DNA of 40,834 nt, taken from assembly GCA_008690995.1 (NCBI GenBank), contig VRMN01000035.1, positions 1 to 40,834 on the forward strand. The letters are read 5' to 3'. This stretch comes from Porphyridium purpureum (taxonomy: Eukaryota; Rhodophyta; Bangiophyceae; Porphyridiales; Porphyridiaceae). The notes below the pieces were generated by a model. The model did not search any database and had not been told where the DNA came from. It saw only the letters and a program-made list of their open reading frames with translations. Position 1 is the first letter of the stretch, and the number at the start of each line of letters is the position of its first letter. Both the position numbers and the translations under genes were made by a program. Below are positions 6,714-40,834 of the stretch, piece by piece.

Positions 6714-7670
6714 ATGTCGGATAGTGAAGAAGTCGATCGACTGCGAACGCAACTCGCTTTGGCGCTTAGTTCGAATATCATTGCTCAGAATACTACCGAA
6801 TTGAAGGCACGAGAATATGCGCTTTATTCGATGATCACCGAGTCCAAGCTCATGAGCGTTGAAAAGGAAATTCAAGGTCTGCGGCGTGATATCGACGAGA
6901 TAATCCGAATGCTCCGCGAACGCGAACGAGATCGTATCGCGGATCCGATTGCTGTGCGGGAACCGAGAAGTGGTGAAAACATACAGGGTGCAGGCTTCAA
7001 TACGGACGTTATCTGGATGCGTACGTCTATGATCAATGCACAGCGCAATTTATCCGAGTTTCTGTCGCGGATCAATTGCCGTTACATGGCGTGCCAGAAT
7101 TCGCATGTGGTTCCCGAATTGGTCATGGTGGATTGGCCAGTGCAACATTCGGATGGATGGCCTGCCAAGATCGAACGCATTGATGATTTGCAGTATCCAA
7201 TTCCTGAACATGTTTTGTTAGAGCATCCGGCATTCGGTGTACGACAGAAGAGCAAGATTCAGCGTATAAGTCGAGTATACGTTCATTTCCAAGGTCAAGC
7301 GTTGACAAGCGATCTGTTGAAGTTCCATCCTCATCCGGATGCATCTACTGTCTGGTCCAATCTTTTATCGTATATTCTGGTTTGCTGGAATGTCACGGGG
7401 AGCCGTCGGTATCCGTGGGAGAACTTTTCGTGGGTGACAAAGGAAAAGATCCGTGGGGTTTTCGAATGCTACGAATCGACATACGGCTCTGCCTGTCTTC
7501 GTTTCTGTCATTTGTACGGGTTCGATGAGGTGGACACGGATCCTCCCATAGCGTGCTCTCGCGCATGTACACAAGGTTGCCTTCGTAGGCGTGGAAGAAC
7601 CTTGCATGATTTCGCGACTGACTGTAAACGCATGCACGATACGTTGATCCGTATGAAATGTAGCCTTTAA
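6714..7670 (+). CDS. 318-aa coiled-coil protein of element A, function unknown
   Basis: An intact frame from an ATG at 6714 to a TAA that overlaps an AATAAAA poly(A)-like signal. Residues about 5-75 are charged and heptad-like (VDRLRTQLALAL, KEIQGLRRDIDEIIRMLRER), predicting a coiled coil and self-association. The rest is a globular-looking region with a cysteine-rich tail (about residues 255-290, CLRFC, ACSRACTQGC), possibly metal-binding. I recognise no family. It lies between the divergent upstream region and the convergent 344-aa gene, 64 bp apart. Coiled-coil accessory proteins such as TnpA of the Spm transposon bind subterminal repeats and pair the ends, so a DNA-binding accessory role is possible; this is inference from context alone. 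Confidence 0.78.
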   Translation: MSDSEEVDRLRTQLALALSSNIIAQNTTELKAREYALYSMITESKLMSVEKEIQGLRRDIDEIIRMLRERERDRIADPIAVREPRSGENIQGAGFNTDVIWMRTSMINAQRNLSEFLSRINCRYMACQNSHVVPELVMVDWPVQHSDGWPAKIERIDDLQYPIPEHVLLEHPAFGVRQKSKIQRISRVYVHFQGQALTSDLLKFHPHPDASTVWSNLLSYILVCWNVTGSRRYPWENFSWVTKEKIRGVFECYESTYGSACLRFCHLYGFDEVDTDPPIACSRACTQGCLRRRGRTLHDFATDCKRMHDTLIRMKCSL

Positions 7671-7734
7671 TAAAACATCTTGGACGAAATCTAGGTCTAC
7701 TTCACATTAAAATGTATGCTCATATCGGATCATT

Positions 7735-8769
7735 TCACTCGATCGAATGCGAGTCGTTGTCCAGCATTGCCATATCTTCAGCCAAAGTATCCGCCTCTTT
7801 ATACGATTCCGCTGCTGCATTCCATTCGTCCCTGCACTGGTCGTGGGCAAGCGTGAACGCTTCAAAGCTTCCGGATGAAGGTACAAGAACACAATCCTGG
7901 ATTATCTTTTTCAATGCAATGTTCGACCTGCTGTAGCGCGTGCCCGGCGCGAGCTCTGCACGGATGACCTGGAGTATGCGGTGCTTGAATCCGATGAAAC
8001 TCTTATTATGCTCCTCGGCCAATTCGAAATACTTGCTGGCAAGCTCCGTTCGGAGCTTGCGATTCATCTGACCGATCCTCATCGAGGTCTCTTCCCCCGT
8101 ATGCCGCATTCTTGACCATGTCGTTGTTCTACGCGAAATGAGTCCATCCGGTTCGAAGAGAATTCGAAGCTTGATCAGTTCATCCGATATCGTGCGCACT
8201 TGTCCGTAGTCAGCGTATTCGGACATAGCGTCAATATCAGGATCTCTCATACGTTGCTGAAAACCATTGTTGCTCAGATCCTTGGGCTCGACGAGGATCT
8301 GCCACGAATGCAAGAAATGTGGCGTCGGATTCAACCACATCAATACTTCTGGCACATTTGCAAATATCGCAGCCGTACAAGAATCCGTATGCATCGTCCT
8401 AGTGATTGAATCAATGTATCCGGGTGAGAGCCATACGCGCGGTGGCATTTCCCATGGTCTTGCCGACGTTCGACGGCGACGCGAACCCACCTTGTATTCG
8501 TCTTCGTCATCTTCCACCGGATTCTCAGCACGACGAAATAGATCCCATGTAAATTCGACAATCGCTGGAACTGCACGAACGAAGTATTCGATGATATCAT
8601 TCATTGCCGGATCATGCTTTTCGTAGTCCTTGAATACATATCGGCTCTGAAACTGGTCCACGATCTGCCGCGTGATACGAATTTGAGCTGCAAAGTAATG
8701 CCATGCGATGTGATAGCGTGCGACCCACAGTCGTGCATGAAGTTCGCTGAATCGATTATACTGGTCCAT
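7735..8769 (-). CDS. 344-aa protein of element A, function unknown
   Basis: An intact frame with a true ATG at 8769. The protein is mostly helical-looking, with an acidic stretch followed by a basic patch in the first third (ENPVEDDEDEYKVGSRRRR). It has no transmembrane segment or recognisable motif. It begins only 24 bp after the stop of the 865-aa gene on the same strand, which is too close for an ordinary promoter. The two are probably translated from one transcript, joined by an unrecognised splice, or coupled by reinitiation. Its 3' end converges on the 318-aa gene. Confidence 0.75.
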   Translation of the reverse strand: MDQYNRFSELHARLWVARYHIAWHYFAAQIRITRQIVDQFQSRYVFKDYEKHDPAMNDIIEYFVRAVPAIVEFTWDLFRRAENPVEDDEDEYKVGSRRRRTSARPWEMPPRVWLSPGYIDSITRTMHTDSCTAAIFANVPEVLMWLNPTPHFLHSWQILVEPKDLSNNGFQQRMRDPDIDAMSEYADYGQVRTISDELIKLRILFEPDGLISRRTTTWSRMRHTGEETSMRIGQMNRKLRTELASKYFELAEEHNKSFIGFKHRILQVIRAELAPGTRYSRSNIALKKIIQDCVLVPSSGSFEAFTLAHDQCRDEWNAAAESYKEADTLAEDMAMLDNDSHSIE

Positions 8770-8793
8770 TCGAAAGCTCCTTCCGTGTTTATC

Positions 8794-11391: not shown

Positions 11392-11822
11392 CTCGTCCCG
11401 CTCACCACCACTCACGCACCCGCACTGTCCACCGCGCTACCGCCCTCTCCGCCTTGTCCGCCTTCCCAGCGCTTCCCACCTTCGCACAACCCACCTTCTC
11501 CGGATCACACCAACTTCCCCACACGATCTGCTCTTCGCCCCACGGCCACTGCGGCCTGCGCGTTTGACTTGTATCGAATTTGATGGACCCAAATGAAAAA
11601 AATGGCAGAATTGAATGGCATGTGGGGTTTTGTCGGGAAAATTACGCATTCACAGAGAGAAAGCTTTATATTAACTACCTCTTTGGCTTGCCGTGGTACA
11701 AACGCTACGCCTGCGTCCAGGAAAGACGCGTGCGTCGGATTGACGGAAGGCTTTGGAGGCGGAACGGATACAGCGTGACGTGCGCGAAAACATACGGATA
11801 GGAAGACTTCCCCAAACCGCGA
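11392..11822. promoter_or_regulatory. Divergent upstream region between the 865-aa and transposase genes
   Basis: A 431-bp spacer between two start codons facing away from each other. The left half is C-rich; the right half is more balanced. CGGAT cores occur at about 11483, 11764 and 11794, sparser than in the genes. No TATA box is obvious. Confidence 0.5.
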
Positions 11823-14800
11823 ATGGACAGACAGCAAGGCCTCGAGAGCAACGCTTGGCATCGACGTAGAAACAAACGTATCCGATGCGATGGGACCCGA
11901 TGCGACTTCACCGTACCAGAGGATGAGGGATTGACTTACTCCACGCGACTTCACATGATGCAGTCACACAAGCGCAAGTGTAAACTTCGCATGCATCCGA
12001 ATCGACTCCCGTATACGCAGGCCTACTTATTTGATGCGGACGACGGTAGTTTGCAGAGGGAGGACAGTCCGGATGATACGGGAAGCGCAAATACAGAAAC
12101 GCGGACTGGACGAGGCAGTGAGCTTCCTGATATCCGGATGGATGACGAGGACCCGGAAATGCAATTTCATTCGGATCGTGACATTGACAGCGGTTGCGAG
12201 AGCTTGCATGCAAACCTGACACAGGATGCGGAAATGTATCTAAGACCGATGGAGCCGGTGCGTGGCGGAGAAGAAGGAGAAGAGCAAGTCGAATATATCT
12301 TAGGTCCGTATGCCAAGCACTTTAATGCGTTATTAAACCAAAAGACTTTACGAGAGCGCTTGCAAGATCGTGACGACGAGATGTCAAAATTCGTACGGAG
12401 TCTGACAGGCGCGGGTGAAATGGAAGATGTTGATCTGGATGAAGCAATCGAGATGATACGATTTAAAAACGACCAGGAAGTATTCATCCAGAAGCATGGG
12501 ATATCCGTACGTCATGCCACGGACTTAAAGTCGATTGAAGCCAAACTCTTACGAATTGCTATCCGTATGACTCTGCGCCAAGTAAGCCAGCTGACAAAAC
12601 ACTCATTTACCATGTTGAAAAGGTATCCGTTAAACCACGAGGCGTCTCGAATCGACGCTGTATACGCTGCATTACAAAGCAAATTGAACATAGCTTCCTC
12701 TCACGTGCTGAAACGAGCAACAAAACTTCTTTTCACATTCAGATCTTCGAAGCGGATGTCTTCGCTTCTTGGCAATCCGAGTATTAAACCTGTTGAGACG
12801 TACGTCGAGTATGGTCGCGGAATCCGACTGAGACGAAACACCCTACGCCGGAACGTGAAGCAAACGATCCGATTTCGTGAACCGATGGACATCGTCATGC
12901 GTTCAGCTGCAGCTATTATTGATGAATACGGATTGGAGCCATTCGTTATCGACTTATTCAAAACCCGGGATCGCGAAATAGTGATGCATCCGCAGGATGG
13001 AAACCTCTGCATCAGCGCAGCCCGTCGGATAGAATTTGAAGTGAATCGAAAACATGGACCGGATCCACCTCAGGTTGTAATTCTTCCAATACAGATATTT
13101 GCGGATGAGTCCCATATGACCCAGAATGGACGACACACAGTGACGCCACTGAAGATACGAATAGTACATCGAAGGCTGTTTGATACACACTCTTCCCGTA
13201 TTCCTCAAGTCGTCGCATACTTACCACCTGTGGATACCCGAAGTATTGCACGAGCATTTGGTGAGGAAACAAGTATCCGCATTGATCCGAAGCTAGCCAA
13301 AAGAGAGCTCGAATCGTCCATGTACCATGCAATTATGAATAAGGCATTCCACCATCTCATGATCGCGAATAAATTCGGAGTGCCAGTCCTGTGGAATCAT
13401 CGCCGCTTGCTTCTTTTTCCTATTGCATACAAGTTGTCAATGGACATGCCGATGATCTCAAAATGCTCATTTACGAAAGCTTCTTTTGTATCCGGATCCC
13501 GTGCTCGAACCATGCCATGCCATCAATGCATGGTGATAGCGCCAGAGGCCACAACTCGAGCAGTCGAAGCAGGACCAAATTCGGATGCATCCAAGGCAGA
13601 AGAGTTCTGGATTACGCGTATTCCTCTGCAATATCGCTGTGAGAAGCAGGTTGAACCTTTCATCACGCAGAATTTATCTGCATGGGGCACGCTACAGAGA
13701 AAAGAACAATCTCTCCACTTTCTCGGTGACTCAGCGGCTATCGGATGGAATCGATTTGATGATGACGATGACGTTGCATTCAATGCAACGATATCCGCAT
13801 TCAAACACAAAATACATCTGCGCAACCGCGGGAGATTTCAACTGACAGGCATAGATGGCTTGCACGGATTCCTTGCATTTTGGCTTCGAGGTATCACAAT
13901 CGCTGGTCTCAAAGCATTGCTGAGCAAACCGAATACTGTACACGAGGTAGGCCTCGTCGCTGAGAGACTCACGGAAGCGCAGCAGCGAGCTACGCGACAC
14001 TTGAACGAAGTAGAACATTCGGATTTTCCACGCATGTGGGCTTCACTCGATTTCGATGAACAAAGACATGGAAGTGCATCCGAAGATACCAGTGGCGATG
14101 ATTCAGAGTCGCATGACGAATACTCTTCGGATGATGACATTGTCCGCGCGAATGAAAGAAATTCGTCACAAACGAATACACGTCAAAGACCAAAGGCCAA
14201 AGCAAAGACGAACGACTCTCACATCAATCCGAGGAGGGCAGAGTCCAACAGAAAGGGCAGCGTATCTGACCAACTTCGAGGTATCATCGACTCAGCAGCA
14301 GGTAAAGCTTGGAACCAAATTGCGACGGAGATAACGGATGAGGCGAGGTTCCGGCGACCAGCGACATACTCTCCGATACGATTATCTTCGTTTTTATCCG
14401 ACTTACCCAAATTCGCAGAACAATCATATTCGCTGGGCTTTCTACTTCAAATGATTGTTCTTGTACACCAGGAGCATTTACTCTCGGATCGTACACGTGA
14501 AAGCTTTACCGAACTTGCAACCAGATGTATCCGACTGTATGGCGTACTATACAAAGAAAAGCTGCGTCGACCATGGCTTGAACTCATCCCAAGGCTCACA
14601 TCCGACTTGCAATCCCGACTCGATTCATACAAGCGGCAGATCAATCTACGTTGGAATGCTCCGAAAATACATGCACTGTCTCACTTCGGGGACAACTTGA
14701 CGGATCTGGGACCGATAAAGTTTTGGGATACTACGGATGGAGAGAAATCGTTTCAAATCGACAAGGCGTGGTTCAAATCACTGGTCAGCGCAGATACGAA

Positions 14801-15689
14801 TATCCCACATAATGTCATGCTGCAGCGCGCAGAGGTGTTCGAAATCGGATCTTCTTCTTCGTACTGGTTTGATAAGCTTGCAAGGAACAAGGATTCGAAT
14901 GCAATTGCATACACACACGAACAAGTATCCGATGAAGCATACACACATACACGAGAATCGGATGCCGCTCGAGCGTGGTACCGGCACCGCTCGTCTTCTG
15001 TGAACTGTTCATCGATCCTTTTCGGAATCTGGCAGAACGCGTGCACTACTCTGAGGTACAGCAGCGAATCCGGATTCGAGGCTGCCCCTTCATGGCGACC
15101 AACATCGTGGAACCCTTCTATATCATTCGAATCCGCTGATGACGAAGAAACGAACATGCTCTGGTTGCACACGGATACGGCTTTGAAGACGTATGCATCC
15201 GAGAAACTCCAAACGGCTGTGAATGATGGTACTGCAACCTTCCAAGCTTTCAGACAAGTTCAACTGAAAAAGCCTCGCGACGAAGCCGAATGCATTGTTG
15301 CACATCCGAATCACTATCGTTCTCCGAGATGGGACATTCTCGAATACGCACTACAAACTGGTCACCCTGAACGCCACGGATATGGAAAATGCATCCTAAT
15401 TGTCCGGATCAAATTACAGGGACCTTACGACGAATCCTTTGACGTGGTGGTGATACAAGATTTAGAGGCGCACGATGGAGAAATCGAAAAGTCAGAGTGC
15501 AAATGCAAATGCAAGCGCCTAGATCCGGTGTTTCATCATTACCGACTCAGTAATAATTCGGTAAAAGTATTGGACACAGAAACGATAACCGGGCGAGTGA
15601 CAGCATTCAAGGATATCCGCATGAAGGACAGCCGATGGTACTACCTTTTAAACCCAAGCACATTCGAAGGCGTACTAGAATACAATTAA
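11823..15689 (+). CDS. 1288-aa putative DDE transposase of element A (CACTA/Tnp2-like)
   Basis: An intact frame from an ATG at 11823. An N-terminal finger-like set (C22, C27, H44/H49, C53) resembles a DNA-binding zinc finger. The central region has FADESHMTQNGRH (D428), then SMDMPMISK and MPCHQCMV (CxxC near 566), then GIDGLHGFLAFWLRG (near 676). Later comes HALSHFGDN...GPIKFWDTTDGEKSF (E974). This order resembles Tnp2/CACTA transposases: a D near a P-x-R-like motif, a C-x2-C after a DxP-type motif, and an E after an H...GP...W motif. The catalytic D/D/E assignment is inference. A clearly alignable protein is encoded at 30848-34597; both end in VLxYN. It is the likely mobilising enzyme of element A. 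A serine/aspartate-rich insert lies near residues 740-820. Confidence 0.82.
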   Translation: MDRQQGLESNAWHRRRNKRIRCDGTRCDFTVPEDEGLTYSTRLHMMQSHKRKCKLRMHPNRLPYTQAYLFDADDGSLQREDSPDDTGSANTETRTGRGSELPDIRMDDEDPEMQFHSDRDIDSGCESLHANLTQDAEMYLRPMEPVRGGEEGEEQVEYILGPYAKHFNALLNQKTLRERLQDRDDEMSKFVRSLTGAGEMEDVDLDEAIEMIRFKNDQEVFIQKHGISVRHATDLKSIEAKLLRIAIRMTLRQVSQLTKHSFTMLKRYPLNHEASRIDAVYAALQSKLNIASSHVLKRATKLLFTFRSSKRMSSLLGNPSIKPVETYVEYGRGIRLRRNTLRRNVKQTIRFREPMDIVMRSAAAIIDEYGLEPFVIDLFKTRDREIVMHPQDGNLCISAARRIEFEVNRKHGPDPPQVVILPIQIFADESHMTQNGRHTVTPLKIRIVHRRLFDTHSSRIPQVVAYLPPVDTRSIARAFGEETSIRIDPKLAKRELESSMYHAIMNKAFHHLMIANKFGVPVLWNHRRLLLFPIAYKLSMDMPMISKCSFTKASFVSGSRARTMPCHQCMVIAPEATTRAVEAGPNSDASKAEEFWITRIPLQYRCEKQVEPFITQNLSAWGTLQRKEQSLHFLGDSAAIGWNRFDDDDDVAFNATISAFKHKIHLRNRGRFQLTGIDGLHGFLAFWLRGITIAGLKALLSKPNTVHEVGLVAERLTEAQQRATRHLNEVEHSDFPRMWASLDFDEQRHGSASEDTSGDDSESHDEYSSDDDIVRANERNSSQTNTRQRPKAKAKTNDSHINPRRAESNRKGSVSDQLRGIIDSAAGKAWNQIATEITDEARFRRPATYSPIRLSSFLSDLPKFAEQSYSLGFLLQMIVLVHQEHLLSDRTRESFTELATRCIRLYGVLYKEKLRRPWLELIPRLTSDLQSRLDSYKRQINLRWNAPKIHALSHFGDNLTDLGPIKFWDTTDGEKSFQIDKAWFKSLVSADTNIPHNVMLQRAEVFEIGSSSSYWFDKLARNKDSNAIAYTHEQVSDEAYTHTRESDAARAWYRHRSSSVNCSSILFGIWQNACTTLRYSSESGFEAAPSWRPTSWNPSISFESADDEETNMLWLHTDTALKTYASEKLQTAVNDGTATFQAFRQVQLKKPRDEAECIVAHPNHYRSPRWDILEYALQTGHPERHGYGKCILIVRIKLQGPYDESFDVVVIQDLEAHDGEIEKSECKCKCKRLDPVFHHYRLSNNSVKVLDTETITGRVTAFKDIRMKDSRWYYLLNPSTFEGVLEYN

Positions 15690-16020
15690 AAGACAAAGTC
15701 CGATGAAGTCTCATCTTCTCATGATTGAAATTATTCGCTACCACCCATCTCGCAAACTTTAAAGTTGCAGACAGTATCGAGCAGTTTTTCGGGCAGTTTT
15801 TCGGGCACTTGATTTTGCAGCCTTTCTTTATTGCCTAGTAAATCGCTGTACGCACGGAAAGTCTACTGTACCTACAGTTTTTCGATCAGTTTTTCGATCA
15901 GTTTTTCGACACTTCAGTATGACAGTTTTTCGAACGCTGCGAGAGAGGTACAGCAAATAGCTGTACTTTACATGCTTACATCAATTTCAGTTTTTCGTTT
16001 AGTTTTTCGGTCAGTTTTTC
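15690..16020. repeat. Right subterminal region and iterons of element A
   Basis: After the transposase stop, about 90 bp of plain DNA leads into three clusters of CAGTTTTTCG-type units. They lie at about 15782-15808, 15880-15935 and 15987-16020, with spacers of 50-75 bp. The outermost cluster mirrors the left end and marks the right terminus. Confidence 0.85.
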
Positions 16021-19000
16021 GCTCCATTTGTGTCACGGACTGTCCACTTCTAATGTGCAGGCTACATTCGAGGTGGGGAGTATGGAAATCCAATCTGACA
16101 ACGACAGGTCCGACGTGCCATACACTGATGGTACATCTCAAGGAGCGCGCGTTGCTATGAGCAAAAGCGAGGAAACCTTCATGAGACGCTACAGTGCATT
16201 CACCAAGGCATATCAGAGTGTAGATTCAAAGTTCTACGGTACCGACGAGGAAAATTTCGCCGCATGGCGAATGCAACTCGTAAATCATTTAGCTCTACAC
16301 AATCTGGATGATCAGTACACTGCACAGGTGATCCAAGCCTGTCTCGCAGGCGATGCTCTGACGTTTTATCTTGGGACGTATGTTGACGAAGATTTGACAA
16401 AGTTCACCATAGCAGATGTTCTGGTGGGCTTAAGGGACCACTTTTACACCATCGAGAAGCTTGAACGCCTGCAGGAGCAGTGGGAAAAGGCAAACTTCGC
16501 GGAATTCCAGGCTAACAATTCCAATATCTCTGAAGTGGAAAATTGTAAGTCTTTGACCCAAAGACTCAAAAGAATCCAGCCAAATTTGAAAAAACCATAC
16601 AGATCCCATGAAATGCTACGTGACAAGTATAAGCAAATCATGTTCAGACATCCCGTATACGAGCGCCTCGTCATGACCCCGCTGCCAACATCGGCTGACG
16701 CACTATGCAGCAAAATTGAAGCCTTGCTTCTGCATATGCAACCCAGTACAGTCTCGCCCAAGCCGCAGCTTGCTTTCACTGCGCAGCAGACGTCAAGGGC
16801 ACCTATGGCTCAGCCGAATCACTCGGTGACTCTGTATCAAGAGCGATACAGGCGTTCGCGTGCAAAACCGCAGGCTAATCGGGCAAGATCTACTCCTCGA
16901 CCGATTAGCATCGCATCCGCCAGCAATCCTCGTACGGCAAACGGCACACAGCTTCTTTGCGACATTTGCCAATCCGAAAAACATTTTCGGCGGTTCTGCC
17001 CCGACAAGGAAGCCAAAAGGAAATTTTATACTGCAAATTCAAACTACATGGTGGCAGATTTTCTAGGCTCCGACTCTTCTTCGGGTGCAGACGCAAGCGA
17101 CAGCACCGACGATGTCACTCACACAGACCTCGTTTGGCTTTCGCCAAGTCTTGTTCTTTTTCAACATGACACCGCTTTTGTTATTGTCGACAGCGGCGCT
17201 AGCGGTGGAAACTTAGTGGGTGAACGATTCTGTCAAGCCCGACAAACCGTCCAAGTTACAGCCCCGCCAAGACGCGTAAAAATGGGCACAAGTGTCTTCG
17301 ACACTCGCGGTCAAGCCAAAATTGTCATGCTAGACATAGGTGGAGCAAAGCTCGAATTCTTTGCTGATGTCATACAACTTGACATCCCACCACTTCTTGG
17401 ATGGCGCGAGCAAAAGGCGCGACACATGACAGTGGACGCGGGCGCCGGCATATTAACGGCCCTTGCCGACAGCGAACAGCTCAAATTTAGGGTCCACACA
17501 ATTGCTGGTCTCCCTTGCATTTTACTTCCAAATCCAGAAAATCCAGATTCGGTCAAAGAGCAACGTGATGATATAGTCCTGTTCACTGCTACAGAATTGC
17601 GCAGATTACACGTGCACTTTGGGCACGCACATCTCGACAAAATCCGCGATCTGTTGCAGCGCAGTGGTCAACGTCTGACTTCTGCCGAAATTCGCTGGTA
17701 TGCAGATATCGTACAGAAGTGCAAAGCTTGCCAATTCTACGCGGATGTACCACGGCGCCCCATTGTGGCCATGCCAGTCAACCCTTTCTTCAACCGCGAT
17801 ATCGCCATAGACACTGTATACTTCGACGGCCTCGCTGTGCTACACATTGTGTGCAAAGGAACCAAATATGCCAGGAATCCTATTTTACGACGCACGGATG
17901 CGGTAACCGTCATCAGTACGTTCTATACTTCTTGGATCACCATCTTCGGCATTCCGGCCACATTATCCATGGACCGCGGTACTGAGTTTCTGAATGCAGC
18001 TTTACTCGAATTCTGTGATGGACTCGGCATTGTGATGCGTCCAGCCGCGACTGCAGCAGCCTGGTCGATAGGTATCGTGGAACGACACCATAAGCCCCTG
18101 AAAACTGTGTAATTCCGCTTGAAAACAACATTCCCAGACCGCGATTGCGAATTATTGCTCGCACAAGCAGAATTTGCACTGAATGCCACGCTTGGCAACC
18201 GTGACACATGTCCATTTTTACTGGTCTTCGGTCAATTACCCGTGTTCACGCTTGGCACAGTCCAGGACCAACACAAAATGACTACAGACCGCCATATGGC
18301 TATGGAAGTCGCGCGTAGAACGACCGAAGGTATCATTGCTACCAGGCGCATTCGCGAGGCAACGCACATAAGCGTTTCAAAAAGCGCACCAGCTTTGCTG
18401 AGCCGTGGAGACCGGGTGCTGTTCTGGCGCCCAAGTGAGAGAGCTTGGGTCGGACCCGCGACCGTGGTCCATGTACACGGAGATGCGAAAACGGTAAAAG
18501 TTGAATACAAAACGCGGAACTACCACCCAGCTCTCCACCAAGTCAAATTGTTCGTCGCGGATCAAGTGCTATGGGCCGACGAGACTGAGACTTTCTCCAA
18601 GATTCTGCAAGTATCAGAACATTCACTCAGAAGAAAATGTGACTTTACGATATCGCGCGCCAAAGAAATCGATGGATGGCATGCAAAGGGCGTAGTGGAA
18701 GCCGTTCGCACGACAGAGCGCGCGAATCTAGACACGCGGTGGGTGGACTCCATCAAACTTTCAGATGGAAAAGAGTTCCCGAAATCACGTCTCGCCTTGC
18801 GAGAGTTTGCAAAATCGCAACCACATGGTTCCATGCTTCGAGACTCACCTACGACATCACGATGGACTGTGCGCGTTCTGCTCTCAGTAGCACTTAATCA
18901 ATCATGGTCCATATCATCCTCGGACGTCGAACAAGCCTTTCTTCAGAGCCAGCCTCTGAAACGTCGCGTTTTGGTGCAACCTCCAAAAGAAGCTGGTCTA

Positions 19001-29900: not shown

Positions 29901-30067
29901 TCGTGCACCACGGGCACCGGCAGCCCAGCAAAGATGCGCTCCGTATCGTTCGCTGCATCTTCGTCACCAAGAGGGGCGGGTGGAGCAGGTGCAGCATCTT
30001 CCTCGGCATCAGTCCGTGTGCTGAAACCCCCAGGAGACCTACGAGGAGACCAGAAAACGCTGTACAT
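26916..30067 (-). mobile_element. Non-LTR retrotransposon (LINE) with restriction-like endonuclease
   Basis: A GC-rich minus-strand LINE. The reverse transcriptase shows box A (VDISNAFNTV), box B (SGVQQGDPLAPLLFS) and the YLDD active site, with RPIAIGEIFRRVLGRLA upstream. The C-terminal part has a zinc knuckle (C-x10-C...HHAQNC) and then E...RPGDFSF...VDVAVV, the PD-(D/E)xK-type endonuclease found in R2/NeSL/Utopia-like groups. The N-terminal part, from an ATG at 30067, lies in another frame and meets the RT frame near 29360-29400. That makes one frameshift, by mutation or possibly programmed. No APE-type endonuclease is seen. The 3' end near 26860-26940 has several AATTCA words. The exact clade is uncertain. 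Confidence 0.88.
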
Positions 30068-30639
30068 CCACAGTACATCAGGTATGTACAATCGTGGTTG
30101 AACCGTGTATACACCGCCCCACCGACCTGCTGTACCTTGTTGTCGTCGCCGTCGTTTGCGCGTCTGCGAGGATGTATAAGCGGCGAGGTAAGAGCGGCGC
30201 AGAGCGCGACCCGATCTAAGAAAGGGTAAGAGAGATGTTAGTGTGATGGAGGTAAAGTTGGTCCTGTTTGCTTTGCTTCTTCCTCTCCACCGTAACAATA
30301 CGGTACACACGTGGTAGTAGTATCATTGACAATAGTGGTACTGTGAGTTACTGTGGCGGTTCTGTGTGGGAGGTGCCTAGGTACAGCGTTTTGCAGGAGA
30401 CTTCTTAGTCTGTTCTGGGGAGACCTTCCTTACACCACTGTACTTAACGATGGTACTGTGGCTGTACGGCGGTTGTACAGCGTATTGCTGGAGACTTGTC
30501 AGTCTGACCTGAGGAGACCTACCGTACACACACGTAAGGTCTTGCGACGGGAGGAGAAACATGTGTTGGAGCGGGAGTAGGAGGCTGTTGCTCGACAAAA
30601 GAATGGAGAGAATAGTATCTCATGTATGAATGTATCTTT
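30068..30639. repeat. LINE 5' region with an imperfect direct duplication
   Basis: Units at about 30334-30440 and 30450-30536 align. Both run from TGGTACTGTG through GGCGGTT and GTACAGCGTnTTGC to GGAGACTT, then AGTCTG and GGGAGACC- or AGGAGACC-like words; the first has about 20 extra bases. GGAGACC words also occur near 30030-30050. Part may be the LINE 5' untranslated region or promoter. No gene is supported. Confidence 0.6.
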
Positions 30640-33600
30640 GGATTCCCGCAAAGATTTTGGCGAGAGCTTTCTGAACAGTTTAGTGATTTACGCTATATCG
30701 GCTTCTGTTGTTTTGTCGACGGTACGAACCGGTCTGGCCGCACGGAGTATTACGCATTTAGCATGCGCTGTATACACGGCAGAAGATAGGACGTGGATTG
30801 CAGATTCCATTTTGTCGAAGCGAAGTCCTAACGTGCGTGTGTGGTCCTTAGTTGTACGTCAAAACATCTTCGAACAGAGACGGATTCACGATGAAGTACC
30901 AGTTGCGCGAAGAATTTGTGGAATCCAAGAACGCAGTGATTTTTCCTGTAACATCTTGTGCATGGACCACGGACACAACGTCGGGAGTCCATTCCGTATG
31001 CACAAACACTGGCTTGAGTGTCTAGCATTGACTTGCACATGTCTGACCGCATACATCGTCCGCAAATCGCTGTATTACCAAAGCACTGATCGTCTTTGTA
31101 TGGATTCCAGACGTCAAGACAATTTTGGCTATGAGGATACACTTCCCGTACGCAAATTCCGTGAGGTCTGTCGTTGGATTCCTGATTTCCACCAAGTCCC
31201 ATCTTGGACAGCCGTAGTGGTTCGGATATGCTACGATAGTCTCCACGGGAAGGGAGTCCCGCGCTAGTCTTATTTGTCTGTATGCGTATATTTCCACGCT
31301 AAAGGAGTTCGCGTCCATCCTGTTCAGCATCACGAATCGACGGAGTTCTTCGTCCACGTTATGCCACAATACTTCGTTTGGGTTGGATGTACCCACCGGC
31401 GTTTCAGCTGGATTCCAGTCTACTGGCATCCATGAGACATCAGGCTGTGTCTGCGTGCTTCCGCATACATCAAACCGAGTGTGCGCACCCGGCCATTTTC
31501 CATACGCTTGCAGATTATCGTTGTTGTTTGTGCCGCCGAACCTGCGCCATACTTGTGTTCCATGTTTTGTGGATTCCCAAAGTTCAGAGAAAGGTTCCAC
31601 ACTGCTTGTTGAAATTTGGTCGCAACGTTCCGTATACATGTAATCCAGTTGTGTTTCTTCATCCTGCTGAACGCGTCGCATCATTCTTGAGATAAGATCT
31701 CTATGGTTCCACACGCCGGTGGACTTAAAGTGTTCCTTAATTTTCTTGAATGCTTTCTCGCCGTCAGTGGTATCCCAAAATTTCAGGGGTCCGCAGTCTG
31801 CAATGGATTCCGCAAAGTGGGTGAGGGCATGGATTTTTGGTGCATTCCATGGGAGTCCAACGACCTTCTTAAACAAATGAAGGCTTTTCTGGAGCTCGCG
31901 CGCGTGAGTTGCAACCTTTGCAATGTCTTCGCTTTGAAATCCTTCACGATACAGGAGAGTGTATGTTTGGATAGCCTTGCAGCCAAGATGGACATATGCC
32001 TCGCGAGAAGCGGGCGACAAAATGGACTCCTGGGAAACGACCATGATCATCTGTAAAAGGAATCCGAGTGAGTATGTATGCTCTGCGAATTTGGTGAGTT
32101 CTTGCAGAAACGGTGACTGACGCATAGGTGTATATACAGCGTGTCGACGATGGAGTCCCTCCGCGAATATTACCCTCGCGATCACTTTCCACTTTTTACC
32201 GGCCCCGGAGTCAATGATGGCGCGCAACTGGTCCGCGCTGCTGCCCTTCCGTTGCGATACTGCGAGTTCGCGGGGCGGGCCAACCACTTCGGCATCTGGG
32301 TCGTCGCCTGATCTACCAGCTGCCCCTTTGCGCTTCTTTGTTTGCCTTGTTGCACATAGATTCCAATTATCTTTTGAAGGTAAATGGCTTGCAGACATGT
32401 TTCCATCGCTTCCATGCACATTATCTGTGTCCGAATTCTCATCGTCTGTATCAAGTGTCCACAAGAGAGAAGATTCTGGATTCTTTGGAGCACGTTTCTT
32501 GGTCTGAAGCGTTGTGAGGCGTTGCATGATCTTCTTAACTTCCGTTTGTGTGTCTGGGCGTGTCAGCAACGCCTTGGGTGCTGCTGCGCAAACGCCTCGC
32601 AACCAGAAAGCAAGGAATCCATGGAGTCCGTCAACGCCGCAGATCTGAAAGCGCCCGCGGGGGTCGAAGCGATTCCATCCCTCTGCAACTGGGCGTCCGA
32701 TAAAGTGGAGACTTTCAGCGCTTCTTTTGGACTCCCCAACTGCGCCGAAATGATTCTTCACAACGTTGAGACTTTCAAGCTCGTTTCGATACACAACCGG
32801 TTTGGTCGTAACCCAGAAATCATGGATTCTATCCTGGTTGTCATCAGGTGGGTCAATATCAACCGTCGGGCTTCCGACCATACATTGTTGACATGGCATC
32901 TTCTGCCCTCGAGTCCCGGAAATCATTGGAAGTTTCGTGAAAGACATTTTTGCAATCATTGGCATATCCATCGACAGCTTGTAAAACATGGGTACGAGCA
33001 GAAGCTTCGTATCCCCCAGGTTGACGGGGATTCCCAATACGTTTGCTTTCAGTACATGCCGGAATACCTCGTGCTGGATTCTATGCCACAATGCAGAGTT
33101 TAACTCATTCTTCAGGTTCTTATCGTCTAGAGACGGATGGGTCTGCCCAACCACCTTCTGCACGGATTCCCTGCTTACGTTAGGAAGGAAAGTGACCACC
33201 GTAGGGTCTCGTACAGAGTCCTTGCCGAACATTTCCCTGTGCATGACACGGATCTGCAGTGGAGTTAAGGCGTGTCGTCCGTTTTTGGTCATGTGCGCTT
33301 CATCTGCAAAGACTTGAATTGGAAGAAGTACAGCTTTTGGCGCGTCTTGGATACCATACCTCGTCTCAATTTCTGCTCGAATTTTTCGACCTGCGTTCCT
33401 TACAAGGTGTCCGTCCTGCGCGCACACTATTTTGTCAGATGTAGCACCGCTGGATACATCTACGTGGAATGTCCGCAGTCCGTGACGCTGTATGATGATG
33501 GCAGCGGATCTTACTATAATCTCAAGCGGTTCACGATATTGCACCTGCTCTTGGATTCCATTCTCAAGTTGGATTCCGCAAATATTTCGCCCCTGTGCGA

Positions 33601-35194
33601 AGGTCACATTCGTCGTGCGTGTTTGTGTGCGCTTGTTCCCTATCGCCTTGGACATCTTTTCCCGTGTTCTTGGATTCCACTGAAGCTTCGCAGCGAGCTG
33701 CATTTCGCGATCGAGCATTTTGGGAATCCGCGCCCTCAACGCGTCGCGTATTCTACAAATGGAATTATCCTGCAATGCCTCACGTCGAAGCTCTTCACCG
33801 ACAACGCTGGTAACTCTACCTAGCGCCCTCCGTAAACATATTCGTAATAGCTTGGATTCCAGCTTCTTCAGTTTCCCCGCTGTTCGACTTGTGATGCCAC
33901 AACCACTCATCACAGAATTCTGTGTACATTTAAATCGAAGCATCTCTATGGAATCCTCAACGGCTTGTGTATCACTCGATGAACTCTCACTGAAAGCACA
34001 AGCGAGCGCTGTGAGCGGATCTTTGGGATTTCGTAGGCGAGTGCGGAGCGATTTCGTTGACATCGTAAACTCCCAAATATCCTGACACTCTTTGCTGACT
34101 GCCTTAAAGCTGGATTCCGCGACATCTTCGTCCAAATCGGTTTCGAACGGATCCTTGCGTGCAACGTCCAGCTCTGTGTCCAATCCATCTTCGACCGAAT
34201 CTGGCGCGTGCCCGACATTTGTGGAGTCCCTGTTGCCACCACTGTCGTAACCGTAAATAGACTCTTCCCCATCGTCCATGGAATCCTCATCGCTGTTGAT
34301 GTCGAAGTAGTCTTCATGCTCTCCATTGATGCGCTCCTGGACATTGAGCTCGTTGTGACCGCTGTCATGCGTACATGCGTACGCCGGCTTCGCGATTTGA
34401 GTGGATTCCGCAATCACACGAGCCGATGCTTTGCGGGCCTCTACCATCTCTGGAGTCGGATAAAAACAGAATTTTTTGTGGATTCGCATTTCAGCATGCA
34501 CAAGCTTTTGCGTCTTCCACCGCGTATCCTTGATGCGAAACCCGCATCCTTCGTTGACGCACGGGTGCATGTCACCGAACTCGAATCTTGTCGCCATGCT
34601 TTTTCCTTTCGCCCTCCAACAAGTATACTCGCGAGCGCACACGTTCACGCACTCTTGCAGACAAAATTTTAGGCCATGTACCGCGTCGCGGGATTCTAAA
34701 TACTGACGGTTTAAGGTTGCGGGACTCCACCATCCGGATGATCCAGTCAGTGGGATTTTTCGCGACGTCCCACAGCTCCTGATGTTGCGCTCACCAAGCC
34801 CGCATTTTTCGGCCGAATGGACAGTGGTCGACTGGATTCCCGTAGATTCGAACGAGCCAACGCATGGCGTATCGCTGCGGACACACAGGTTTGAGTGCGC
34901 TGATGTGCGCACCGGTGAAGGCGACGCAAGAGACATGCGATACATCAGTCTCGCCCGAGAGAGCTTGCGTCTCGCTCGGCGTCCCGAATCGCATCTCCTC
35001 AGACGAATGAATGAGCTGAGTTGGGTGCCAGCTCGCTGGATTGGGAGTCCACTGTGGTTGAACATGAACCACGCTGTGAGTGACTTATACAAGGCCTACC
35101 TGGAGGAATCGGAATGCTGAGATAAGGATATCACTGAGCGAGTGGACTCCATCCGACCGATAGAGTGGAAGGCAGTGAGACAAATCAGGACTCC
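30640..35194 (-). mobile_element. Element B: relative of element A
   Basis: Bounded here by the first and last GGANTCC motif, since no terminal inverted repeats or iterons could be found. It holds one long gene on the minus strand, homologous to the element A transposase, and none of element A's other four genes. It may be a deletion derivative or have lost its ends. Copia DNA begins about 100 bp to the right, at 35291, and may have inserted into it or next to it. Confidence 0.7.
30640..35194. repeat. Dispersed GGANTCC motif array of element B
   Basis: Thirty-three exact copies of the palindromic 7-mer GGANTCC by manual count, mean spacing about 138 bp; chance predicts about one. The middle base varies (T 15, A 6, G 7, C 5). 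Copies lie in coding and flanking DNA. Outside this interval I found only about five in the other 36 kb (for example near 3000, 13866, 18746, 24656 and 35690). The largest gap is 32158-32614. Confidence 0.9.
30848..34597 (-). pseudogene. Putative DDE transposase of element B, one premature stop
   Basis: The frame is open far upstream (to 35092). The ATG at 34597 (MATRFEFGDMHPC) is preferred because it puts a CxxxxC...H...C finger at the N-terminus, as in the element A protein. Shared blocks: FADEAHMTKNGRHALTPLQI, LSMDMPMIAKMSFTK with MPCQQCMV, GVDGLHGFLAFWLRG, YSLGFLLQMIMVV and GPLKFWDTTDGEKAF. A TAG at 31022-31024 ends the long frame. The same frame then continues with homology (AFLDST, NWYFIVNPSLFEDVLTYN) to TAA at 30848-30850, matching the end of the element A protein. 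One nonsense change near the C-terminus thus probably inactivated it or trimmed about 58 residues. The full reading gives 1249 codons besides the stop. Same likely role as the element A enzyme. Confidence 0.82.
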
Positions 35195-35290
35195 CTTGGT
35201 CGTAAAGGGTTGACATGGCATTGATGATTCCAGACATGTCCGGGACCTCGAGGCGCGGTTTGTGCAGTGGATTTTGAGCATTGAGATGTT
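35195..35290. other. Short spacer before the third Copia element
   Basis: No gene or repeat is recognised. It may contain the lost right end of element B or its flank. The GATGTT before 35291 would hold the left target duplication of the Copia element, but the partner lies beyond the window. Confidence 0.4.
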
Positions 35291-35520
35291 TGTCAATTAT
35301 TCGTGTGAATAATTGACCAAGTACAGGTGTAGCTGTACCAAGTTACTTTGAGGGTTACCCGAACCCTCAATTTCTTGACCAGCGTATAAATACGCGGCGA
35401 ACGGCGGCGGGAAAGTAGCACTAGAACAAAAATAAAAGGTTAAGGGTGTATGAAAAAAGAACAAACCTTCCGCCCCGTGGGATAGCCTGACGGGGGATAG
35501 AGATGAACGACAGTGATCAC
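35291..35520 (+). repeat. 5' LTR of the third Copia element (right edge approximate)
   Basis: The left edge is fixed by the matching start at 40823. A TATA box (TATAAATA, 35385-35392) is followed about 45 bp later by AATAAAA (about 35431), a normal LTR promoter and poly(A) order. The right edge and primer-binding site could not be placed. Confidence 0.65.
35292..35317. repeat. Perfect hairpin at the LTR tip
   Basis: GTCAATTATTC and GAATAATTGAC are perfect 11-bp arms around a GTGT loop, starting one base inside the LTR. The left arm recurs at 40824-40834. Confidence 0.85.
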
Positions 35521-38500
35521 TCGGGATCTCTCCAGTGTTAGAAGTGTGGTGTCTGACTTAAGATGACTCGTCGGGGTGCTAACGTCGCGGCGGGTGCGAG
35601 TGGCGAACGTGAGAGAGAAGTGTCTCCCGCTGGAGAAGGGATCGATGCGGGACATATGACGCAAATCAGTCGCGACGAAGGCTCCACGGAGTCCAGCGAC
35701 CAGTTCGATCCCTCTCTTCTAATTAGCATGGATCTTGGTAGTTTTTCTACCGAAAAGAGGCTGGCGATTGAGGACTTACGGGACTTCGTCGTCATGTTCC
35801 GAACCTACAGCGGTGTGGCCTTGATGGTGCAGATGACTCGCCGTCTTCCTCGTTCCAGTATCCTGGATTGTGGCCTCTTTGCACGCGAACAGTTTGCTTC
35901 ATTTCTGACAGCAGCACAAGTACCAGGTTTTCGTCTATCTGACCCCGGTGTACCCACGATTGATCGTTTTCGCCGGATTTATGAAGACAGCAATGATTCC
36001 CGATCTTCTGCGACGGTGCTAGATGCGAACGGACGTACTCCGCAACGGGGAGCCGCACCTGTGACGGATACTTGGCAGCAAGACTCTGGCCGATTGCAAG
36101 CAAGTACCGTAGGTCATAGTTCTCAGCCCGTGGTGCCACCAATCGTTTCTGTGCCCGGCAACGAATATGGTCTTGCAAGAAACTCATCCACAGTTTCGAA
36201 AATGATTAGATCGGAGGACATTTTTTACATGGACGAATACAAGGATAAGATATCATATTACCGGTGGAAACAAGAAGCCCTTCTTACGTTTGCGCGAGCT
36301 GAAGTCACCGAACACCACCGTGCTCCGATCCTCGGCATGATGCTGGGCGGAACGATCAAGATGTTTTATACCGACAAAGTCCAGTACAATAAGAGCCTGA
36401 ACGATGCTTTCGAATTACTTGATTCCAAAGTTTTTACCGGGGAATTTCATGAACAGATGGTTGATTTATTTGACGGGGTGAAGTTCCGCCACATTGCGAA
36501 TCGCATGCGTAATAGCGGCAACAAAGGGATTTTACATGTACTGTACCATGATACTCTGAAGTACGCGCAAGGCTGCTTACCGACGGAATATCATGGCGAA
36601 CGCCGCCTCCTCCGGGCTCTGCGCAATGCAGTAAGAGATGAAAGTTTCGCATCTGCAGTCCTGCTGAAGGATTTCAACACTGCCGATGACCTATACGCTC
36701 ATCTGGTGGGATGCATCAATATACAGTCGCGGATTGTACGACCGTCTTTGCCTGCATCCCAGCCACGCGCCCAACATCAGTTGTTCACCAGAGATTTACG
36801 TCATCAAGTGTCTTCCTCCTCTGCCGCTGGATCGCACGCGAAGAAATCCAGTGCGCCGTTTTGCCGCAATTGCAGCTCTCCTGAGCACCTTGCCATGCAG
36901 TATCCAGAACCGCCCAAATGTCATAATTGTGGCTCTACAAGTCATTTCATTACACAGTGCTCGGAGACATTGAATCAAAAATTGCAACGAGCGCCTGTTC
37001 GAAATATTCGCGCGCTTCTCTTCAGTAATGAGGATATGCAAGCGTCCGATATTGATCCAGTGTTGGAAAGGGTTGAGTCGTTTGAAGAACACAATGCTTC
37101 AGGACACGACAACAGCATAGAGGACGAACTATTTTATTCCGCTGTCAACGACATGCATATTAAGTATGAACATCTGCAAAGTATCGCGTCAGCAACTCGC
37201 TCGTCAGGAGCCATCGGGCTTGCGCTACTTTCGCAACGTATGATTTCAGACTTCTGGGGTGTATGCGTTGATACCGGAGCAAGCTCCAACTTTTGCTCAC
37301 TACCACAGTGGCAAGCGTTTTGCGCATTATCGAACAGCCCGTCTTCGCTGCGTCCAGTCACAACGCGCTCCGTCGGTCTCGATATCGGCATATTTCGGAT
37401 CATCGGAACTGGAGAGTTTCGTCTTCCGGTCTCGTCTGATGTGTTTTTGACCGTGGATGTGGACGTTCTTGATACTTCCAAAGCAGAAGATCCTCAGTGG
37501 CCTCCACTGGTCTTGGGACTGTTGACCATGGATCATCACTCATGCTTTCCGAACAATTTGACCGACGCGTTGGTGTTTCCAACGCTTCAGATTGAGATAC
37601 CTCTTATCCGCAAATTTGGAAAACTTTTCATCGACCCTGCCATTTTCGCTCGAGCGTCTCCGCTGTTGACGTACGCGGAGCTGCGAGAAATTCACAGAAA
37701 GTTCAATCACGCGAGCAGCGAACGCATTCAGAGAATATTTGATATCGCCGACCAACCTTTGTCCGAAGACGAGTTCAGTATTCTAGCAAGACTATCGCGC
37801 CAATGTCACATCTGCCAGCGATTCTCGAAAGCACCCGCGACGTTTCGCCTGTCCGCCAATGTCGAAGTCAATTTCAATCATACTGTGCAGCTCGATACAT
37901 TCTACCTGCCGCACACCCAAGGCGAACGACCTATGCCCGTGATGCATATCGTATGCGAAGGCACCCGTTTTATGTCTGGTCAATGGTTGAAGCACGACTC
38001 TACATCGGGTGCTTTATTCGAGATTTTCTTCCTGTGCTGGATTTCCGCGTACAATGGCGCACCACACATCGTCAAAGTCGACGCAGGATCCGCTTACGCA
38101 AGCCGAGAATTTCAGGCCCTTGCAAATGTGCACGGTATTCACGTCGACGTACAGCCTATCGAAGGGCATCAATCGATCGGACGAGTGGAACGCGCGCATG
38201 GTATAGTCGGTATTATGTACGAGAAAATGATACTTGAAGATCCAGACGCAGACGCAGATGAAACGCTTGCACACTGCTTCTTCGTCGCAAACTCATCCTG
38301 TGGGCTTTCGGGAATCCCACCATGCCTTATGGTGTTTGGCTCGATGCCTCGGATGGTAATCAGTTCGATTCAAGATGTTCCCTCTCAAGCCGCGCGGATC
38401 AATGCCCTTGTTCTCGCACGTCGTGTGTACGAAGAATTCATCGCGAAACAGTACTTAAACATCGCGCTGAGCCGTCGCCACGCAGCGCTCGGTTCCGAAA

Positions 38501-40199
38501 TGCAAGACACCGGTCCTCCTGTGCCTGGCGACCTAGTAATAATCGCCCGGGAAAGAAACCGCAGACGGAATTATGATGGGCCCTATCTGTGCGTCGCTGT
38601 TGATGGCCATAAGGTCTCAGTTCGAATGCCGCCCACCGGTGCCGTCCGGATTTTTCATGTTGCATGTGTACGCAAATATCGGATCGAACCCGCTGCTGAG
38701 CTGCTAACGCAGCCCATATCTGCCCGCGAATATCGCTTGAATCCAGACCTGCAACTTCGCTTCAAGAGTTCTGATGAGGAGGAGCTTTCCTGGCTTTACA
38801 ACCAGGGAGCTTTTATTATTGCAGAACGTGTACCCACCAACGCCGTCATCGTCCCTGCAAAAATGGTTCGTGTTCTCAAAAACTACCGTACTGCTCACGA
38901 GACCACAAAATCACGCTTGGTCGCACTCGGACATGTGGACGCTCAGAAACGCTCTCTTATTGTCGAGTCTCCGATGCTGTCGCAGTGGGCACTCAAAGTT
39001 ATTGTGTCCACCACAGTTCAATTCGGCTGGACAATTCATACTCAGGATGCGAAAAAAGCCTACTTGCAAGCAACGAAATCATTGCAGCGCCCCGTATATA
39101 TTGTCTTGCGTAGCGTCTTGTGCAATCTATTCTGCAACGCGGTCAACATTCCGCCCCGTGACATCTTGTACCTGCTCGTCGTCAAACCGCTCTACGGCCT
39201 ATCCGAATCCGGCATGTATTGGTGGTTTTCCGTCCAGCACGCATTATCAACACTGTCGCTTGTTCCGACACCAATGGATCCGTGTTTCTTTATTCAGGCT
39301 TCAGATGGCCTGGTAGGCGTCCTATCGGACAATATCATTTACGCTGGAACGCGCTCATTTCTCGGCTCCTTGCAGCAAAAACTCGCAGAATTTATTATGT
39401 CACCAGCTGAAACGCCTCCGCTCGAATACAATGGCGTACGCCTTGAGCAGAATTTGCGCATGCACCAAACTGAATACCTACAAACGCTGCGCCGCTCCGC
39501 ATTGGAAGCGCTTACGCCTGAGCAATTTTGGGACGCATTCGTTGGCTTGGTCAAACTCGCCCAGATTTACTACCTCTTTCGCCATCGGCGCTCGATCTAG
39601 CGGATACCGCGAAACGTGTTGGCAAATACCTCGCTGAAACCAAACGTTGGTATCTGCCGTACGACCGCCTTGATGCGGATTTCCGCGTTCATGCGTACAG
39701 TGATGCAAGCTTCGCAACCGATGGCACCCGGTCGCGCCTGGCTTTCTGCATTTTCCTGGTGGACGGTGTGCACCGTGCTCATCTTCTTCATGCAAGGAGC
39801 TATTTATCTCCGCGGGTTGTACGCAGTGTCCTTGCCGCCGAGCTGTATGCCGCAAGTGACTGTTTGGATTTCTGTCTAGCCCTGCAGCCCACGCTGTGCT
39901 CCGTGCATGTACGTGATGTGCCGATCACTTTATTCACCGACAGCCAAAGCATTTTTGATACGGTGCACAAGGCCAAGGTTTTCACTGAGAAACGGCTGAT
40001 GGTTGATGTCGTGCAGCTGCGAGAGGCGATCGCCACGGGCGAGCTACAAGACCTCGCTCACCTTCGAGCTTCCTCAAACATCGCAGATAGCCTTACGAAG
40101 TTTGATACTCGCCGTCTAATGTGGCACCAGTACTTCATGACGGGAAAGCTTGACCACGATGTACACATGGCAACCCAGCGGTATTCTCCGGAACTGTAA

Positions 40200-40822
40200 T
40201 GTTGACCTGTAACCTGCCTGGTCGGTGAAAGGCCTTGAGTTTCATATCACATTCGACCAGTATACTATACACATGTGTGCAACAATATCTCGGCCTACCG
40301 CTTCCCAATCGCGTCCTCGTTTTCGTCGGCACAACTGCCGCACTGTGTACTATGCGTCACCAGAGCGTCAAGTCATTCCTGCGCGTTGTCTTTGCGTCAG
40401 AGCTCGATGCAAATTTACAAGGCCATTCAAGTTCAGCAAGTTCCTTCGCTCAGTGTGGCGAATTATTGCGCGCCATCGATCATTCAAGCTATCAACAACA
40501 TATTGGTGCTCCCACAAGCTTGCGCCTGACTCGTTTTCTCTCGTCATTTCATCTGCCAAGTCTCGACATGTCGTTTTGCCCGTTTCGGTACCGTACAATG
40601 ACCAAATGCCGCCCATTTTTTGCGAGGGCGCCGGTCAATTGGTTTTTTTACAATCTCCAGTCCGCATTTCGCACGCTGTTTTTCGTGCTCCGTGCCTGCT
40701 TGAATGTCCCGTCGACTTCCTCCTCTTCGCTCGCGCACGTGTTTTCACACTCGCTCTGTGATTCAGCATTGCATTCTGGAGTATGTCATTCGTGTGCCAT
40801 CCCAGAAAGAAAAATAAGGGAA
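40200..40822 (+). other. 3' untranslated part of the third Copia element
   Basis: Between the end of RNase H and the 3' LTR. An open frame of 178 codons crosses it but resembles nothing and is probably chance. The last part is the purine tract. Confidence 0.5.
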
Positions 40823-40834
40823 TGTCAATTATTC
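40823..40834 (+). repeat. Start of the 3' LTR of the third Copia element
   Basis: The final 12 bases, TGTCAATTATTC, repeat the first 12 bases of the LTR at 35291 and follow a polypurine tract. Confidence 0.75.

Follow-up and report, generated by a model that had tools for sequence, protein, structure and literature searches.

At least four related transposon families of the red alga Porphyridium purpureum each carry a private palindrome over the body of the element, genes included

Introduction

In the maize transposon Spm, the element-encoded protein TnpA has repeated short subterminal sites, which are terminal and are not spread across the genes; the VANDAL transposons of Arabidopsis are Mutator-like. 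In Arabidopsis, the transposon-encoded protein VANC binds to short motifs, specific to a family, and clears DNA methylation from VANDAL elements along their whole length, according to the available text of two papers (PMC5735166, PMC10398659). The motifs described there, YAGTATTAY and AGTTGTCC/AGTTGTAC, are non-palindromic, noncoding and have grown as tandem repeats (PMC5735166, PMC10398659). A third described system, the CMCT clade, is characterized in the available text of PMC12730594 by CA..TG termini, a short target-site duplication (TSD) and, in the transposase, C(2)C and H(3)H pairs that follow a conserved D and precede the last conserved E. Here we analyse a 40,834-nucleotide stretch of the Porphyridium purpureum genome (contig VRMN01000035.1, hereafter the window), which holds two related DNA transposons, elements A and B, and we describe in element B an array of the palindrome GGANTCC together with the corresponding arrays of sister families elsewhere in the genome.

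At least four families (A, B, G and I) each carry their own palindrome over the body of the element, genes included. The words are under selection at the level of DNA, much of it in coding sequence; the transposases of the families are homologous, and in one diverged pair of elements the number of words is constant while their places have changed. We propose, with moderate confidence and partly by analogy with VANC, that each array serves family-specific self-recognition, and that it would be read by an element-encoded dimeric protein with an anti-silencing effect in cis. The family labels A, B, C, G, H and I are our own, I3 and I4 being diverged members of I; loci that we first labelled D, E and F are relatives of element A, with 85–99% DNA identity over parts.

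The GGANTCC array of element B

An exact scan finds 44 GGANTCC in the window, 33 of them between 30640 and 35194, in agreement with the first-pass annotation, which had reported 33 copies in 4.6 kb with about one expected. Over 30640–35290 the first-order Markov expectation is 1.1 (log10 P −35.8), and GGANTCC is the top-scoring palindrome in a list of 63,632 patterns. The remainder of the window, to which the annotation had assigned about five copies, holds 11, and whole-window dinucleotide shuffles (n = 100) gave a mean of 9.1 and a maximum of 16. At 7.2 per kb the array is about 30-fold denser than sampled host DNA, in which five 10-kb stretches from five other contigs contain 11 copies in 50 kb (0.22 per kb). 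The host clusters that the annotation had proposed to look for were absent from this sample; plus-strand TGGANTCC sites on contig C1, among those listed up to 1.55 Mb, are nowhere closer than 280 bp, and three host places with two GGANTCC 12 bp apart have only 2, 2 and 3 words per approximately 3 kb. The array covers coding and flanking DNA alike, as had been noted, the 4,071-bp transposase open reading frame (ORF) holding 28 sites and the 580 bp outside it holding 5; within the ORF all three codon phases are used (11, 5 and 12 sites). The features of element B in the window are as follows.

30010..30025, plus strand: left terminal inverted repeat (TIR), CAGTCCGTGTGCTGAA; the terminus is common with element A (3190) and family C (L008:993)
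30033..30519: subterminal GGAGACY repeats, six copies, at 30033, 30045, 30396, 30419, 30490 and 30513
30060..30333: inserted repeat within the subterminal block; the same sequence is found in pairs 5.9–6.2 kb apart on contigs C44 and C30
30640..35194: GGANTCC array, 33 sites by exact scan, mean gap 142 bp
31022..35092, minus strand: transposase ORF, 1356 aa as read (P0001), 28 array sites inside
35291..40834, plus strand: copia retrotransposon inside element B, ORF 35563–39600 with RVT_2 and rve, continuing past the window

The edges of the array are not the ends of the element, as had been suggested they might be. The left TIR of element B lies 630 bp outside the array, and the array stops on the right because of the copia insertion from 35291. 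The copia has no GGANTCC excess of its own (2 sites in its ORF), and on contig C19, where this stretch recurs (7,068 of 7,068 positions identical), the array resumes past the copia with ten more GGANTCC (L034:558–1671) around an ORF for a homologue of the element A companion protein described below; an array that is a property of the region is thereby ruled out. The window and C19 parts together hold 43 GGANTCC in 6.1 kb, against a Markov expectation of 1.6. The flanks of the sites are near background beyond one base, so the sites are not copied repeats, and growth of the array by tandem repetition is ruled out.

Private palindromes in sister families

Comparable excesses of other palindromes are found in the relatives of element B. 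Element A has 85 MTNCGNAK against 17.0 expected under the Markov model and 53 of the stricter ATNCGNAT against 6.6; family G has 55 RATATY against 6.0; and family I has 58 SGTACS against 8.9, with 49 against 8.0 in I3 and 25 against 4.4 in I4. The array of element B is element-specific and differs from that of element A, as was remarked in the annotation. Sites in coding and in other DNA number 37 and 6 in B, 81 and 4 in A (MTNCGNAK), 55 and 0 in G, and 32 and 26 in I. Expressed per kb, coding DNA is denser in sites than other DNA for element A (7.3 vs 3.2) and for family G (7.7 vs 0), whereas the two densities are similar in B (6.9 vs 8.6 for the window part, 7.8 vs 3.1 for the C19 part) and in I (5.9 vs 6.3). 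Fitting of position weight matrices returned sharp motifs for B and G, but for A, I, C and H the matrices became degenerate.

Element A, which lies in the left half of the window, allows the array to be placed in a complete element:

3190..16042: element A, approximately 12.85 kb, five large ORFs, inserted in copia; TIRs CAGTCCGTGTG / CACGGACTG
3241..3368: left subterminal block of AGTTTTTCG/CGAAAAACT repeats, six exact 9-mers, no MTNCGNAK
3369..15763: body array, 53 ATNCGNAT and 85 of the looser MTNCGNAK
3508..6159, minus strand: protein Z, 883 aa, with a homologue in family C
6714..7670, plus strand: companion protein, 318 aa, 100% identical to FVE85_2427
7735..8769, minus strand: ORF, 344 aa, no family match above cut-off
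8794..11415, minus strand: ORF, 873 aa, no family match above cut-off
11823..15689, plus strand: transposase, 1288 aa, 35% identity to the element B transposase over 1,056 aligned positions
15764..16033: right subterminal block of AGTTTTTCG/CGAAAAACT repeats, nine repeats, no MTNCGNAK

Half-site density in 500-bp steps shows that the array fills element A between its subterminal blocks. Density profiles of SGTACS at the same scale fall off near the right ends of I and I3, the array of family I stopping near its right terminus (approximately C1:128033). The termini that were examined, the two of A and the left one of B, carry a different repeat from the body, and the GGAGACY block of element B, broken by the inserted repeat, contains no GGANTCC. 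The presence of sites throughout the body, with other repeats at the ends, argues for marking of the body and not for recognition of the ends.

This bears on the alternative that the words are internal sites for the transposition machinery, through which the N-terminal region of the transposase or a TnpA-like partner would find, compact or pair a long element, countering of silencing not being their purpose. The elements are indeed long (A 12.85 kb, C approximately 10 kb); on our reading, an N-terminal transposase stretch containing cysteines and histidines differs between families, and a dimer whose monomers each contributed one short DNA-reading module would recognize a short palindrome. Sites of the transposase type are expected near element ends, however, where A (on both sides) and B (on the left) have other repeats and none of the body words; family H, moreover, possesses a transposase without an array. 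We regard this alternative as unlikely, though deserving of serious consideration.

In other transposons of this genome the top palindromes are unremarkable (copia1 −6.0, copia2 −6.0, gypsy-like −7.1, mariner/miniature inverted-repeat transposable element (MITE) −5.5), which rules out the word array as a property of all transposons here. The control scans, of five host stretches, two copia, a gypsy-like, a mariner/MITE and a long interspersed nuclear element (LINE), cover the top one or three patterns only, such that a weaker word beneath a compositional pattern would be missed; their high scores reflect SSSS, WWWW, WSSW and YRYR composition, and word-like patterns in the same top rows reach about −7. 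The 20.8–30.0 kb stretch of the window scores −19.6, for an SSSS-type GC pattern. Family C has a scan score of −10.8, which exceeds its own 12 shuffles (−4.4 to −5.7), and CTTCGAA occurs there 12 times against 0.5 by host rate; it is at most a weak candidate for an array.

Selection on the DNA

Element genes were recoded by shuffling their synonymous codons while the protein was kept, with 2000 shuffles per test. The element B transposase has 28 GGANTCC against 5.3 after shuffling, the element A transposase 31 of the half-site YATCCG against 7.3, the family G transposase 30 RATATY against 9.9, the family I transposase 39 GTAC against 23.4, and the I3 transposase 16 SGTACS against 5.2, the observed number being reached by 0 of 2000 shuffles in every case. 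Six of eight further genes from A, B, G and I also gave 0/2000, and a weaker family G gene (804231–805268) gave 12/2000. Words exchanged between elements (the A half-site in B, GGANTCC in A, and GGANTCC in copia2) showed no excess. Since the excess is lost on synonymous shuffling in four families, selection acts on the DNA. GGANTCC may in addition have shaped the protein sequence of element B, because shuffled codons still give 5.3 sites where host density would give about 0.9.

An artefact of codon use, base composition or repeat copying would be the simplest account, and compositional patterns in host DNA do score up to −17.8. We find it scarcely credible, given the synonymous shuffles for A, B, G and I (family C aside), the absence of any such excess in the A/B word swaps and in other transposon types, and the unrelated flanks of the element B sites. 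An artefact of codons or of protein repeats in particular is ruled out for A, B, G and I by the shuffles, and for B also by the use of three codon phases.

Turnover and spacing of the words

I and I3 have 73% nucleotide identity over 5,407 aligned positions in three segments. SGTACS numbers 36 and 33 in the two elements and 18 of the sites coincide (52%; controls SGATCS 18% and SCATGS 28%), so the number of words has been kept while about half of the places differ. Between A and the left part of its relative F (85% identity), ATNCGNAT is kept in 12 of 12 comparisons in both directions (6 sites), against an any-8-mer baseline of 29%.

A repressor, whether the host's or the element's own, that limits copy number by reading the words could leave the same DNA-level pattern, the excess being real by codon shuffle. 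A host repressor, however, would select for the loss of sites, yet their number is kept while their places change, and family-private words require a family-private reader; we consider a repressor improbable.

In three of the five elements tested the words are spaced more evenly than expected at random (A, P = 0.0008; I, P = 0.0015; G, P = 0.017), and combined over B, A, G, I and I3 the evenness reaches P = 1e-5. With the chosen words the mean gaps in these five elements are 129–159 bp, of the order of a nucleosome, and no helical phasing at 10.5 bp was seen (vector strength 0.06–0.17). Spacing near the nucleosome repeat, and its evenness in three of the five, would suit a purely mechanical account, in which the words favour or exclude nucleosomes with no protein reader. 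GGANTCC, ATNCGNAT, RATATY and SGTACS, however, are unrelated in sequence and composition and have no common nucleosome preference, which leaves this account very improbable indeed.

Structure and assignment of the elements

CAGTCYGTG is the terminus of element A on either side, of B on the left, and of I and I3 at a single end each. The ends of element A read CAGTCCGTG..CACGGACTG, a copy of family C on contig C45 is bounded by CAGTCCGCG and CAGTCCGTG, and I and I3 have CAGTCTGTG at one end each; neither the ends of G nor the left end of I could be found. Two uninterrupted copia copies, on contigs C18 and C20, represent the empty site of element A, and against them the junction has a 4-base overlap, TCCA, equivalent to a 2-bp TC duplication if the element begins with CA. 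Among the aligned transposases, residues corresponding to P0001 D709, C734/C737, H1088/H1092 and E1112 are invariant in 6 of 6 and then 7 of 7, such that C(2)C and H(3)H pairs lie between a conserved D and a conserved E; the catalytic residues of P0001 are assigned by position. The first candidate catalytic D (P0001 D597) is E in the family I transposase (C1:123943–127239) and D in the others, including I3. As the termini, the reading of the TC duplication and the invariant C(2)C/H(3)H residues match the traits given in PMC12730594, we file the lineage, on its sequence features, among the CACTA/EnSpm-like (CMCT) DNA transposons.

Along its entire length P0001 matches the Porphyridium purpureum protein FVE85_1203 with 100% identity. 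For transposases of the element B type, neither Pfam nor the PDB gave a sequence match to a transposase; searches of solved structures by sequence returned no matches, and a structure model of the transposase (mean predicted local distance difference test score, pLDDT, 38) was too poor for a fold search. Protein searches gave no homologues outside P. purpureum (8000 best-sharing or 7161 candidates scored; other red algal genomes not searched as DNA), and viral contigs gave no confirmed homologue.

A LINE-type repeat (26852–30009, RVT_1, a GC-rich stretch) ends exactly against the element B terminus at 30010. The repeat inserted at 30060..30333 is probably a solo long terminal repeat (LTR), because the same sequence occurs in the spaced pairs listed above. 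Three copies of element B are probably duplicated segments and not independent insertions, since the flanks are common to all three. On C19, C39 and C40 multi-kilobase, nearly identical stretches surround B, and copies of element A lie on the same three contigs; these common stretches are probably duplicated, transposon-rich segments. On C19 a mariner-type element and then a gypsy-type element, the latter by ORF reading, follow the array, and the right end of element B was not found there. A further terminus of this superfamily, the third CAGTCCGTGTGTTAAA, lies at window position 1002 beside a mariner-type element (approximately 1030–2549) with many genome copies, and a minisatellite, mostly of 14-bp period, occupies 23361–23625. 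Copies of family H (C40:310600–318994, the left border being a chosen cut) on C12 and C11 have apparently moved or been duplicated recently, as they are 99.6–99.9% identical over 3,609 bp.

Candidate readers and the proposed explanation

The companion protein of element A (6714..7670) is modelled as a long N-terminal helix followed by a weakly PWWP-like part, and has homologues in element B (L034:641–1792, minus strand) and family C. A PWWP domain is found in the companion gene of family G above the Pfam cut-off (E = 1e-6), of H just below it (3.7e-5) and of I weakly (0.012). A Foldseek search with the companion model gave no match at E 0.001 or better, with PWWP chains among the weak ones. 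PWWP is a type of domain that reads histone methylation and nucleosomal DNA, and for this reason such a companion would be compatible with a chromatin role. The element A proteins at 7735–8769 (344 aa) and 8794–11415 (873 aa) are further candidate readers of the word.

A strand-symmetric, family-private word, selected at many coding and noncoding sites, is best explained by a dimeric element protein; the annotation had likewise suggested a dimer from the palindrome in B, and such a protein is consistent with the dyad symmetry that the words of four families have. Under our proposed explanation, the dimer would bind the palindrome of its family at many sites per element, the bound protein would mark the chromatin of the element as its own, and this marking would most probably lift host silencing in cis while leaving host genes untouched. 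The binder could be the PWWP-type companion, the transposase or another element protein. We further advance, more tentatively, the idea of an address code, in which a private palindrome recurs about once per nucleosome over the whole length of the element, bending codon choice and perhaps protein sequence, and is coated by a family-private dimer that tells self apart from the host and from the sister families; a new family would then arise by a joint change of word and reader.

The annotation's second suggestion, an enzyme of the GANTC type, is a poor fit as a general idea, because the palindromes of sister families are unrelated and the Pfam scan, which covered element proteins but not all ORFs, gave no DNA-methyltransferase match. 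The same negative result tells against the broader alternative that a DNA-modifying enzyme, for example an adenine methyltransferase, recognizes the words and marks the element, even though palindromes of such length resemble modification sites and each of the four strong words contains an A; we hold this alternative to be doubtful at best.

Returning to the dimeric self-recognition protein, several results weigh against it or restrain it. The scanned element proteins include no sequence-specific DNA-binding family above cut-off, and titles and abstract openings in the literature yielded nothing on DNA methylation in P. purpureum. Family H has no array, its best palindrome (−6.0) lying at the margin of the range given by 12 shuffles (−3.8 to −5.9), yet it has both a transposase and a PWWP-type gene. 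The score of family C is matched by compositional patterns in host DNA (−10.4, −17.8), and of its nine codon-shuffle tests one was strong (1/2000), the others giving 19 to 247/2000. In element A the gene at 6714–7670 showed no clear excess (82/2000). Conservation is equivocal in places: bare GTAC is common to I and I3 at 49% of sites against 31–45% for six control palindromes, so the four-letter contrast is small, and in the right part of A and F (92% identity) ATNCGNAT is identical at 6 of 10 sites (class kept at 8) and MTNCGNAK at 12 of 18 (class kept at 14), with no clear excess over a control word (6 of 8) or the 8-mer baseline (58%). Spacing is only marginally even in B (P = 0.065; 0.13 for the short C19 part) and not even in I3 (P = 0.86), one of ten evenness controls, a control word in A, reached 0.05, and the mean gap depends on how the word is defined (76 bp for GTAC, 232 bp for ATNCGNAT).

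Comparison with known systems

The precedent known to us for sequence-specific self-recognition by a transposon is a plant system with noncoding tandem motifs. A literature search at the level of titles and abstract openings found no account of arrays such as these, beyond the related noncoding kind in the two VANC papers. Several related families with distinct words in their genes, within one small algal genome, make the reader, its specificity and the coevolution of word and reader testable by comparison of families, and the arrayless exception, family H, could point to the reader gene. The arrays also point to selection at synonymous sites, and perhaps on the protein itself, of a kind that does not resemble translation or splicing, and word density may allow transposon borders to be drawn.

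The CMCT elements, as described in the available text of PMC12730594, resemble the Porphyridium lineage in their CA..TG termini, short TSD (tested here for element A) and C(2)C/H(3)H pairs between D and E. They differ in that the Porphyridium transposases have no Pfam match, in that the companion is of PWWP type here and a TET/JBP dioxygenase in the fungal elements, and in the body-wide word arrays, which that text does not mention.

The AGTTTTTCG and GGAGACY blocks look like the subterminal sites of TnpA in maize Spm, whereas the body words of Porphyridium are spread through genes and the Spm sites are terminal. VANDALs are Mutator-like and the Porphyridium elements CACTA-like. The likeness to VANDAL/VANC, so far as the available text of the VANC papers extends, lies in related DNA-transposon families that each have a different short motif in many copies, motif and family diverging together, and in element genes beyond the transposase in both. 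Accumulation of family-specific short motifs is found in A, B, G and I and not in H; noncoding tandem-repeat motifs are not found, the Porphyridium words being largely coding and the flanks in B unrelated, and for this reason we do not file the lineage as a member of the VANDAL/VANC system. The Porphyridium words are, moreover, palindromic and scattered, and in B are not copied with their flanks. By analogy, then, the arrays would work in outline as VANC and its motifs do, and there is a real chance that they represent a distinct mechanism.

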